From Phycisphaeraceae bacterium (GTDB lineage: Bacteria; Planctomycetota; Phycisphaerae; Phycisphaerales; UBA1924): DNA of 64,000 nt. This document shows positions 7,599 through 10,944 of the stretch, in pieces. A model generated the notes under the pieces. It was not told the DNA's origin and searched no databases. It saw only the letters and a program-made list of their open reading frames with translations. The DNA is taken from the NCBI GenBank assembly GCA_019636495.1, contig JAHBXL010000005.1, positions 124,001 through 188,000 of the forward strand, in the 5' to 3' direction. Positions within the stretch are counted from its first letter, which is position 1; each line of letters begins with the position of its first letter. A program made the position numbers and the translations under genes.

Positions 7599-7623
7599 TT
7601 GGGGAAGATGGTAGGGGCGGAGG

Positions 7624-7791
7624 GGATGTGGGATGTGGGATGTGGGATGTCGGATGTGGGATGTCGGATGTGGGATGTCGGATGTGGGATGTCGGATGTG
7701 GGATGTGGGATGTGGGATGTGGGATGTCGGATGTGGGATGTCGGATGTCGGATGTGGGATGTCGGATGTGGGATGTCGGATGTCGGATGTG
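7624..7791 (+). repeat. 24-copy perfect heptamer array, (GGATGTS)24
   Basis: 168 bp consist of 24 consecutive 7-bp units, all GGATGT followed by G or C; no other variation occurs. The seventh bases in order are GGGC GCGC GCGG GGCG CCGC GCCG. There are no spacers, so it is not CRISPR. All six frames are free of stops, and the plus strand offers an ATG every 21 bp in each frame. Confidence 0.97.
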
Positions 7792-8171
7792 GGAAGGGGG
7801 GTGGGGGATGGGAGAGCGGGTGGATTCTGGACTTTGGATCGGTGGAACTGAACTTGCCCACCGATTTCGGACACCGGCAAACCTCGGCCGGTAGCGCGTG
7901 TCAAGTTGCGCACATTGCCAAAGAGGTTCTCCCCAGGGAGGTTGAGTCCGGCTGCTGAGGCGGAGGGGGGCGTTGCGCCGCAGCCGAAGCAGCCGGAAAC
8001 GCGGCTCACGCGGCCGCGGTGATCGGCATCGTAGTGCCAGGTGATCCTTGCTGGTCGAGGTCACACGATGCGCGACTGTTCACTGTGCAAAGGGGCTTCG
8101 CCCCCTTGCGACCCCCAGAGGCAAAGACACCGCGCACAGGAAGCGCGCAGAGTGTCGATGATCGCCGCCGC
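7792..8171. other. Gene-free spacer with decayed heptamers
   Basis: The first ~55 bp continue the 7-bp rhythm in degenerate form (for example GGATTCT GGACTTT GGATCGG at 7822-7842, shifted by 2 nt from the main array). No gene is supported beyond that; a GGGGCTTCGCCCC hairpin lies at about 8092-8104. Confidence 0.5.
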
Positions 8172-8212
8172 GAAGTTCCGAATGCCGGGCCGGCGCTTGA
8201 GGCCAGCGCGAT
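8172..8212 (+). repeat. Dispersed repeat R, copy 1
   Basis: GAAGTTCCGAATGCCGGGCC followed by GCGCTTGAGGCCA recurs in the same orientation at 10637-10686 with a small internal insertion. It cuts the IS110-like reading frame on this side and the RHS frame on the other, bracketing the AT-richer island. Confidence 0.6.
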
Positions 8213-8284
8213 GCTCACCGTCCCCGCTCCGTCAACAACGCACAGCTGCACGCTCTTGCTGTGGTAGTCCAGCCCGACAAACAC
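8213..8284 (-). pseudogene. IS110-family transposase, N-terminal remnant
   Basis: From a GTG at 8284 the frame encodes [17 protein letters not shown], the first beta strand and catalytic-Asp segment of IS110-family DEDD (RuvC-like) transposases. After about 24 residues the similarity ends inside dispersed repeat R, and the remaining DEDD and Tnp20 parts are absent. What is left is the very 5' end of the gene plus, upstream, what would have been the element's non-coding end. Confidence 0.6.
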
Positions 8285-8320
8285 GGGTACATTCTCTATG
8301 GCCTGTTGCTCCTTGATGGG

Positions 8321-8444
8321 GTGTCAAGTCCCAACAGGAGTGTTCCCTGGTCAGGGGCAGCAGGTCTTCATACCCATCAGCCGTGTCAAGTCCCACCAGG
8401 AGTGTTCCCTGGTCAGGGGCAGCAGATCTTCATACCCAACAGCC
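8321..8444 (-). repeat. 62-bp tandem duplication upstream of the IS110 remnant
   Basis: 8321-8382 and 8383-8444 are near-identical 62-bp units differing at a few positions. Each contains CCAGG/CCTGG arms around AGTGTTC in the second copy. They lie just upstream (5') of the remnant transposase start, where IS110 elements carry a structured non-coding end. Confidence 0.75.
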
Positions 8445-8462
8445 AGAGCAGCTACCGAGACA

Positions 8463-9149
8463 CTATTGATGTCGTCCACATTCGGAACATCTAGACCCAG
8501 GAACCAAGTCCCGTCCATAACCACAGTACATACACGAGCCTCGCAAGACAGCGCTCTTTAGGTGCTGCAACGCTCCATATGCCGTGATCAGACATACGCC
8601 AGAAAGCAGCCAACAGATTAGTATCACAGCGGCAACAACGAGGTTACTCCAAATAATATAATGTCGCGGATTATCTACTAACTCGACTAACTCTTGCACC
8701 CTTCGTTGTGGCTGTCCACTAATCTGAATGCTAGCTATATGAGGCTCATGTACGATGTAATCTTTGAGCGCGGGAGTGATCGTCGAACCGACAGTACCCG
8801 ATTGTGTTACCCGATCGGGGAACGCCGGAGTTAGATCGATCAATACCGCTTCGGTCAGATAGATCGGCCAAACAGTCTGGTCTGGCGCCAACTTCCACGT
8901 CACATTGATAAACCACGCCGACTGTCTCGAGTCGCTACTTAAATCTGACCAAGCACGAGACCTGCGATCAGCATCTACCCTGATCTGTCCAGCATTGTCA
9001 CGATAGACGAAAAACGCTTTGGCTCTTGTGAATGACTCGCTAGAGAACTCTTTGCGCCAAGTCCATGCTATTATTGAAGCAATAAGCAATAATACGGCCA
9101 ACAATACAAAGCCCGCGATGCGAGTCCGTACATCGCGACGTTTCAGCAT
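8463..9149 (-). CDS. Membrane protein with C-terminal zinc ribbon; possible immunity partner of the RHS tip
   Basis: 228 residues. ATG 9149 is chosen because GGAGGG precedes it by 7 nt. A transmembrane helix lies at about 10-30 (IAGFVLLAVLLLIASIIAW), a second at about 170-195, and the tail holds CMYCGYGRDL...RCSECGR, a planctomycete-style ribbon. The extracytoplasmic middle has no known domain. It starts 66 nt after the stop of the RHS gene, on the same strand, and like the RHS tip it is far richer in A+T than its surroundings. Position, size and composition are those expected of an immunity gene in a polymorphic toxin cassette, but no homology supports that. Confidence 0.5.
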   Translation of the reverse strand: MLKRRDVRTRIAGFVLLAVLLLIASIIAWTWRKEFSSESFTRAKAFFVYRDNAGQIRVDADRRSRAWSDLSSDSRQSAWFINVTWKLAPDQTVWPIYLTEAVLIDLTPAFPDRVTQSGTVGSTITPALKDYIVHEPHIASIQISGQPQRRVQELVELVDNPRHYIIWSNLVVAAVILICWLLSGVCLITAYGALQHLKSAVLRGSCMYCGYGRDLVPGSRCSECGRHQ

Positions 9150-9215
9150 GAACTTCCCTCCAAAAAACACCACCGATTGCGCCTCTCGCCACGATGTCTA
9201 TAGCAATACCGCATC

Positions 9216-10679
9216 TCATCCAGGCGGTTCATCGTCATCGGGTATCTCTGGATTCGGAGGTGTGCCCGGTGCCATCACCGGCCCTCTATTGCTTCCTCGA
9301 TGACGATTGCGACCACAACGATCCTCGATTCGGCCATCAGGCGTATGACGCCACTTACAGCAATAGCACCTCCAAGTACTCTCGGGCGGAGTGTCCTGAG
9401 CGCCCTCTTGCGCACCCGATATCATATAGGTTACGCCAATCACGACTGTGACGGTGACAGTAACCGATCCACGTGAAGTAAACCAACCGGCCACACCAAA
9501 GCCATGCAGTACCTCTGCATGATCTTGGGTGTACTGCGCCGGTGTTATGTCGGCCCTCACGCCGAATGCCGATGCTGAGCCGCCATTGGTGCTGCCCAGA
9601 GACTTGGATGAGTAGATCCGGGATACCAATACACCTTCTTCAATTGAATCGCGGCAACTAAACTTGGCGTCCGTCAGGGCTGACGTTCTATCGATGCGAC
9701 TTGCTGTCGCCTTGAGCTCCACTGCATTGTCCCAGACTGTCTTGACCCATTCCACGGACAGTCGCCCGTTTCTAACGCTTCCTCTTGTGGTAGCCCCATC
9801 GACCAAGTATGGTTCTGTTTTCAAGCACTCCCACGCCCACGCTGTAAGCCCTGCAGGATCCACCTGCCTGATTGGCTGTGATTGTACATAAGAGATCAGC
9901 GTCACCCCATCCACATACCCCATCGGGTCTCGTCGCGTCCACCTGCCCAGGCCGAAGTGCAGGACCCTGTGCCGCACGTGCGCGAGTTCCGGCGCGGCGA
10001 GGTCGTTGCCGAATCCCTCGTGCTCGTAGCCGGCGTAGCCCTTGCGGTTGGCGACGTTGGCCGAGAGTTTCCACCTTCCGCCCACCGCCGCGGCGTTGTA
10101 GGAAGTGGTAAACAGCGTCTGGTCCGCCGTCGTCCACGCGCCATCGCGGTTCAGGTCTGCCCGCGCGTTGTTCGCGGCGTAATCCGCATTGAACGCCGTC
10201 TGGTCCGCCGCGGAGATGCCGCCATCTTTGCCATGGTCACCCGGCGTCAGCAGGAACGGCACGCCGTACGCGCTGTACTTCTGCCACTCGATGACCGCGC
10301 CCGAGTTGTCGAAGATGGCGGAGACGTCCGCCCGCCCGAGCGTGAAAAGGGCCCCCTCATCCCCCTCGCTGCGCTCGGGTACTTCTCCCCGGCGACCGGG
10401 GAGAAGGGAACCCTTCGACAGTTTCCGCGAAGCGGCGCTGTCCCAGTCTCGCAGGGTCACAAGGTCAATGTACGTCCATTTGGCCACTGTCGCAAGCATC
10501 TCGGCAGTCAGGTGCAGCCTCTGCGGTCGGGCGAGGTCGAAGAGGCTTCCTTGCTGCCGGTGCAGGGGGCGTGCCGCCCCCCCTCCCAGACCCCTGCAAC
10601 CCCCGGCCCGGAGCCGAGCCCCTTCGCGCCCGCCTCGAAGTTCCGAAAGCCGGGCCCCCCACCCAGCGCTTGAGGCCAC
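9216..10679 (-). CDS. RHS-family protein, 5'-truncated, with a unique C-terminal tip
   Basis: The frame encodes an RHS core end: YIDLVTLRDWDS, IFDNSGAVIEWQKYSAYG, GYAGYEHEGF, the HFGLGRWTRRDPMGYVDG segment and the boundary motif VDPAGL. Two dockerin/EF-hand-like loops (DLNRDGAWTTADQ and a sister) are inserted. After the boundary (about 9845 downward) comes a ~210-residue tip unrelated to anything I recognise, with a Cys-rich CYCCKWRH part, encoded by AT-richer DNA. RHS proteins export such tips as toxins. The N-terminal shell is missing: the frame begins in dispersed repeat R, so this is a 3' fragment, possibly silent or a recombination donor. A palindromic element interrupts it in frame. Confidence 0.7.
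   Translation of the reverse strand: MASSAGWGARLSELRGGREGARLRAGGCRGLGGGAARPLHRQQGSLFDLARPQRLHLTAEMLATVAKWTYIDLVTLRDWDSAASRKLSKGSLLPGRRGEVPERSEGDEGALFTLGRADVSAIFDNSGAVIEWQKYSAYGVPFLLTPGDHGKDGGISAADQTAFNADYAANNARADLNRDGAWTTADQTLFTTSYNAAAVGGRWKLSANVANRKGYAGYEHEGFGNDLAAPELAHVRHRVLHFGLGRWTRRDPMGYVDGVTLISYVQSQPIRQVDPAGLTAWAWECLKTEPYLVDGATTRGSVRNGRLSVEWVKTVWDNAVELKATASRIDRTSALTDAKFSCRDSIEEGVLVSRIYSSKSLGSTNGGSASAFGVRADITPAQYTQDHAEVLHGFGVAGWFTSRGSVTVTVTVVIGVTYMISGAQEGAQDTPPESTWRCYCCKWRHTPDGRIEDRCGRNRHRGSNRGPVMAPGTPPNPEIPDDDEPPG
10346..10413 (-). repeat. Palindromic element inserted in frame in the RHS gene
   Basis: CCCCCTCGCTGCGCTCGGG is followed by a hairpin of CTTCTCCCCGG and CCGGGGAGAAGG. The same two modules occur at 16821-16949. 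Here they encode the residues SLLPGRRGEVPERSEGDEG between RHS core segments. Confidence 0.75.
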
Positions 10680-10686
10680 AGCGATT
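10637..10686 (+). repeat. Dispersed repeat R, copy 2
   Basis: Same order of blocks as 8172-8212 (GAAGTTCCGAA, GCCGGGCC, GCGCTTGAGGCCA), with about 9 extra bases CCCCCACCC in the middle. The truncated RHS frame begins in it. Direct orientation relative to copy 1. Confidence 0.6.
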
Positions 10687-10699
10687 GCTGCTCGTCAGA

Positions 10700-10733
10700 G
10701 CACGGGCCCCGCTCAAAGCAGCGGGACCCGTGC
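10700..10733. repeat. Strong hairpin next to repeat R
   Basis: GCACGGG (10700-10706) and CCCGCT (10708-10713) pair with AGCGGG (10720-10725) and CCCGTGC (10727-10733), 13 base pairs with one mismatch and a 6-nt loop. It directly follows repeat R and may be part of the same element. Confidence 0.6.
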
Positions 10734-10831
10734 CACGTCTAAGGAAAGGGAGGCTCATCGGCCGTGCCATCAGCCGCTGCGCGGGCGGAGAGGTAGCCCC
10801 CTCTGTCGGTTGCGCCGACATCTCCCCTGTC

Positions 10832-10897
10832 GCCCCCCCCCCACCCCCACCCCCCCACCCCCACCCCCCACCCCCACCCCCCACCCACACCCCCACA
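10832..10897 (+). repeat. C-tract array upstream of psd, 13-bp period
   Basis: Runs of C5 to C8 separated by single A. After the first interval, A-to-A distances of 6 and 7-8 alternate, giving a rough 13-bp period. The minus strand is a series of G5-G6 runs with strong quadruplex potential. Confidence 0.8.
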
Positions 10898-10944
10898 CCC
10901 AGGCGGGGGAGAGGGGCGCTGAGGCGCATCGTGGGTTCGGCCGC

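Follow-up and report, generated by a model that had tools for sequence, protein, structure and literature searches.

Organization of the cassette

A cassette on the minus strand of the window (the whole 64,000-nucleotide stretch of DNA analyzed here) is probably an orphan RHS polymorphic toxin/immunity module, comprising a candidate toxin and a candidate immunity protein, that would become usable after recombination into a full RHS gene. Judged from its sequence, the variable C-terminal tip of the RHS protein and the membrane protein encoded behind it (the partner) appear to be a new pair within the known RHS toxin/immunity type. This reading gains support from recognizable toxins in other RHS cassettes of the genome and its family, one of them with a recognizable immunity protein. 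The cassette and its flanks comprise the following features.

10679..9216, minus strand: open reading frame of RHS shell plus tip, 487 aa
9846..10679, minus strand: truncated RHS shell, with a GC-dockerin-like segment and a C-terminal RHS-associated core ending in VDPAGL (TIGR03696, NF041540, DNA identity with sibling shells)
9902..10336, minus strand: left recombination arm, common to sibling shells (blastn)
9216..9845, minus strand: variable tip, candidate toxin domain, 209 residues (position after the VDPAGL boundary)
8463..9149, minus strand: partner, candidate immunity protein, 228 aa, two transmembrane helices, ~130-residue outside loop, C-terminal zinc ribbon (ribosome-binding site, open frame, hydropathy, zinc-ribbon alignment)
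8030..8447, minus strand: right recombination arm, or flank repeat (81-97% identical pieces at four sibling loci)
10630..10777, minus strand: remnant-like segment upstream of the shell, resembling the ends of other cassettes (blastn to L018, L019, L020, L021 and, over a shorter length, L024)

A preliminary description of this DNA had proposed an RHS shell end, a tip of ~210 residues after VDPAGL and, 66 nt past the tip, a 228-residue membrane protein with two helices; coordinates and hydropathy bore out all three, with the tip at 209 residues. VDPAGL ends at 9846, and the tip is encoded by 9845..9219 with its stop codon at 9216-9218. A gap of 66 nt separates this stop from the start of the partner gene (ATG at 9149, coding 8466..9149, stop at 8463-8465), whose ATG is preceded by the ribosome-binding site GGAGGG. 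GC content falls from 67.0% in the shell to 55.7% in the tip and 49.1% in the membrane gene. The drop first described is therefore real, but the values for tip and partner differ, contrary to the earlier statement that they are the same.

Third-position GC (shell 78%, tip 54%, membrane gene 48%) is not adapted to the host in tip and partner. This would suit a decaying relic, that is, a once-functional cassette in which shell fragment, tip and partner are no longer expressed and now drift, yet unadapted GC is general among tips and partners of the family: across 61 family cassettes, mean GC was 64% for the shell, 55% for the tip and 51.5% for the partner, with the tip below the shell in 59 of the 61. 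Such a relic would also account for the lost N-terminus of the shell and for a repeat-derived insertion in it (KGSLLPGRRGEVPERSEGDEG) that is common to L017, but stored RHS tips normally sit on orphan shells. Moreover, the ribosome-binding site of the partner is good and both frames are open over their full length, beyond the longest found in 1000 mononucleotide shuffles (244 codons versus a maximum of 160 for the partner; 229 versus 206 for the tip). We regard decay as very unlikely.

The RHS shell and the unit of exchange

Residues 209-278 of the shell matched the Rhs_assc_core model TIGR03696 of NCBIfam at 35.5 bits (cutoff 32.5), and this RHS-associated core ends in a DPxG-type boundary, VDPAGL. 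Residues 148-196 were GC-dockerin-like (NF041540, 24.1 bits, below the cutoff of 29). At 278 residues against the 2245 codons of a sibling, the shell is truncated, as had been recognized at the outset. The orphan shell has neither an export signal nor a full RHS cage, both of which belong to the main gene and not to orphans. Lacking an N-terminal signal and the greater part of the cage, the orphan would not be exported as it stands.

Six sibling shells reside in the same genome at five loci (L017-L021), on contigs C34, C2, C1, C22 (two) and C31, and are 71-88% identical to the orphan shell in protein. The preliminary description had missed these siblings, together with the C-terminal zinc ribbon of the partner and the repeat after the membrane gene. 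The sibling on C2 is a 2245-codon RHS gene with a secretion-signal-like start (MSRPLSGMFVSALVLAALAGVPMRASGQQ), and the remaining siblings are fragments. The siblings whose sequence was followed past the shell have wholly different tips and different downstream genes. The left arm of 435 nt is 82-91% identical to the sibling shells, the value for the full-length gene being 91%.

By blastn, DNA similarity to the six sibling shells stops at 9902-9907, which is 57 nt or marginally more ahead of the tip. Beyond the partner gene, L019 and L021 match again from 8447 onward, and L018 and L020 match deeper in this flank. The distance from the partner stop to the right repeat is 18 nt here and 0-2 nt in L019; in L018, the shared flank piece begins 45 nt past the stop. 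Within the flank repeat, a 62-nt unit occurs twice at 8321-8444 and is followed by a conserved stretch at 8030-8320; 22 copies or pieces of the repeat are present in the genome, several of them beside RHS cassettes. Because similarity to sibling DNA stops before the tip and resumes after the partner, tip and partner together make up one exchanged unit. Siblings and exchange unit together lend support to the earlier idea that the cassette may be an orphan donor.

No tip separates the shell fragment of L021 from the two-helix zinc-ribbon gene behind it, which is in turn succeeded by the right repeat. Here a partner has been retained after loss of its tip, in line with expectation for immunity genes. 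The segment at 10630..10777 has blastn matches that sit just after or near partner genes at other loci, and is probably the remnant of a preceding cassette. Two further sequence features were observed nearby: a long tract rich in C (in G on the minus strand) at 10833-10901, just upstream of the orphan shell, and an array of approximately 27 copies of the heptamer GGGATGT at 7623-7810 of the window. A small open reading frame at 8006-8284 on the minus strand, which goes with the conserved stretch of the flank repeat, was considered as the start of a transposase, but it had no Pfam match and that reading was dropped.

The tip

Searches of Pfam, NCBIfam, PADLOC and the PDB gave no match to the tip beyond chance, the PADLOC search for defense systems included, and no recognizable toxin fold or catalytic motif was found in it. 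Relatives were likewise absent from 163 genomes of the family, 392 genomes of the phylum, 85,000 species genomes, viral contigs and plasmids, where scans of the large collections were seeded by exact matches to short peptides and are able to detect only close relatives. When 397 genomes of the class were searched less strictly, the best matches had E 0.003 or worse. These class-level matches (E 0.003 to 0.1) were rejected; the three checked in DNA (L046, L047 and L052) lay neither in RHS genes nor in plausible reading frames. Likeness of the tip end to a CW-type zinc finger (MORC3, E 1.5; phrog_32136, E 0.08) was judged to be chance, and single-sequence AlphaFold models (pLDDT 41 for the tip and 55 for a second model) were too poor for a fold search. 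A search for the tip fused to a full RHS protein or to other exporters had been suggested; in the collections covered, the tip turned up neither on a full RHS nor in another genome. The tip thus appears to be a wholly new sequence with no relative in any of these collections.

By hydropathy, residues 127-145 of the tip form a stretch of borderline hydrophobicity, of a kind that occurs in 9 of 65 tips. It would fit membrane insertion, and we treat it as a lead only.

Toxins in other RHS cassettes

The lack of a toxin fold in the tip, along with the GC-dockerin-like segment of the shell, would accord with a different role, in which the tip would be a structural or surface terminus of a secreted protein of the RHS/dockerin type and would be exported or anchored with help from the membrane protein. 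Shells of the same kind, however, carry recognizable toxins. Within this genome, L022 encodes a DddA-like deaminase tip (47.9 bits, cutoff 25) with an Imm1 partner (35.3 bits, cutoff 22.4), and L017 (contig 34, at ~167 kb) encodes a Peptidase_M76 tip (48.7 bits) with a small lipoprotein-like gene behind it. Peptidase_M76 is the family of the mitochondrial protease Atp23. Elsewhere in the family, HNH and phospholipase A2 tips were found. Tip and partner also vary jointly between shells, as in toxin/immunity pairs. A structural role is very unlikely, and the least probable of the alternatives weighed here. The layout of toxin tip plus immunity gene initially proposed for this cassette is instead supported by these recognizable toxins, the other tips and partners behind sibling shells and the joint unit of exchange.

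The phospholipase A2-like tips of L088, L101, L115 and L155 are mutually related; L088, the one scanned, best matches the animal group XII enzyme (37.2 bits). Among family cassettes, the partners of cysteine-rich tips tend to be membrane proteins or lipoproteins (Fisher p 0.004), with the proviso that motif and hydropathy rules are simple, that single assignments may err and that related cassettes are not independent.

The membrane partner

Hydropathy placed two hydrophobic helices at approximately residues 6-33 and 163-195 of the partner, with a loop of ~130 residues between them and basic residues before helix 1 and after helix 2. Because of these basic ends, the loop is predicted to lie outside the cytoplasm. 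The C-terminal zinc ribbon (CMYCGYGRDLVPGSRCSECG) aligns with partners of other RHS tips. Searches against the Pfam immunity and toxin models and NCBIfam gave no match above curated cutoff. No orthologue was found, weak matches being limited to the last helix and the zinc ribbon; the loop matched no other partner, and similarity vanished once the zinc ribbon was removed. Of the earlier claim that both proteins are new, the part on the tip stands, but the tail of the partner is common to ~53 other membrane proteins of the genome. The preliminary description had also counted occurrence of the membrane gene without the tip in relatives against an immunity function. Such occurrence was seen for the loose zinc-ribbon class only, and not for an orthologue.

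Several of these ~53 proteins are clustered away from RHS genes. Clusters of stand-alone two-helix G-W-P zinc-ribbon proteins occur at 56-59 kb of contig 33 and 106-108 kb of contig 4 of the genome (L168-L176); they are possibly stored immunity genes, or else an unrelated membrane family.

Abundance of the tail in the genome raises the question of whether the tip is a real polymorphic toxin beside which one of the lineage's ordinary membrane proteins with a zinc ribbon, unrelated to immunity, has landed. No relative of the partner loop was detected, and the gene stands 66 nt from the tip, whereas many cassettes have a -4 nt overlap, and both facts would favor such a chance arrival. On the other hand, the gene belongs to the exchanged unit bounded by the two repeats, and is of low GC relative to the host, as is the tip. 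Furthermore, membrane-anchored zinc-ribbon proteins are the partner in 13 of 63 cases versus ~1.5% of genes (~14-fold enrichment behind RHS tips; binomial p 1e-11; baseline of ~55 such genes per estimated 3,600 in the genome), and in one family of HExxH-like tips they are the rule (11/11). We consider chance arrival unlikely, although it is the most credible of the three alternatives.

The HExxH-like family comprises cysteine-rich tips. Six such tips share the two-helix zinc-ribbon type of partner, and a profile built from them recovered five more in four genomes, each with a partner of this type, such that the partner stands behind an HExxH-like tip in 11 of 11 cases from 10 genera (L018, L093, L108, L127, L131, L161 and L212-L216). 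The one match of this profile (A2) in the own genome is the full-length RHS in contig 2. These partners are related to each other over the loop, and also to stand-alone proteins, and most contain G[WFY]P. HExxH-like tip and two-helix zinc-ribbon partner likely represent a new toxin/immunity pair.

The partner in the window has the build of this class, with two helices and a C-terminal CxxCGY...CxxCG. Like the HExxH-tip partners, which have 189-268 aa, it combines two helices, an outside loop and a C-terminal CxxCGY...CPECG, and is encoded directly behind an RHS tip. Unlike them, it has no G[WFY]P and no similarity in the loop, and its tip lacks both the HExxH-like motif and the conserved cysteines. 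Demonstrable kinship of the window partner to the class is limited to the tail, its matches consisting of the zinc ribbon and last helix only.

Comparison with known RHS systems

An orphan-to-main route of recombination has been demonstrated for the rhs-CT orphan of Salmonella LT2 (PMC3967940). As in the orphan rhs-CT/rhsI modules of Enterobacteriaceae, the cassette described here has a shell fragment with a DPxGL boundary, a unique C-terminal tip and a linked candidate immunity gene. The arm matching a full-length RHS gene of the same genome is 522 bp at 95% identity in Salmonella (PMC3967940) and 435 bp at 91% here. Enterobacterial orphans differ in lying directly behind the main gene, whereas here orphans are scattered over several contigs, a repeat flanks the partner side, and the full-length protein has a predicted Sec-type start.

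The cassette also shares with the RHS polymorphic toxin systems of Zhang et al. 2012 (PMC3482391) a variable C-terminal toxin position after a constant shell and an adjoining immunity gene. The portion of that study available to us records RHS toxins of planctomycetes as well as immunity proteins with two helices (Imm17, Imm-CdiI), and does not contain the term 'zinc ribbon'. The window tip and its two-helix zinc-ribbon partner differ from the systems in that portion by matching no Pfam immunity or toxin model.

Proposed function and significance

The tip and partner would constitute a stored spare warhead. Homologous recombination via the 435-nt shell arm would transfer the pair jointly to the full-length RHS; as a toxin, the tip would then reach neighboring cells by way of this protein. 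The partner would reside in the inner membrane, with the zinc ribbon on the cytoplasmic side and the ~130-residue loop exposed on the other, and may protect the cell that makes it by binding the tip, or blocking it, at the membrane. Judging by partner topology alone, action at the envelope or insertion into the membrane, as opposed to action in the cytoplasm, is quite possible for the toxin, if somewhat short of probable. We would propose only tentatively, and with considerable doubt, that the tip founds a new family of toxins attacking or inserting into the inner membrane, and that it is blocked by a new two-helix zinc-ribbon immunity class, built from the large membrane-protein family of the planctomycete lineage itself.

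The host is probably a planctomycete, judging by its zinc-ribbon and dockerin types, and RHS systems of planctomycetes have hardly been studied. The genome described here displays a full-length RHS together with a store of spare tip/partner pairs, and the unit of exchange is legible from its flanking repeats. The more general outcome is a class of two-helix zinc-ribbon partners of RHS tips in this clade; with two helices and a cytoplasmic zinc ribbon as its common build, this class makes a whole candidate class of immunity proteins testable.
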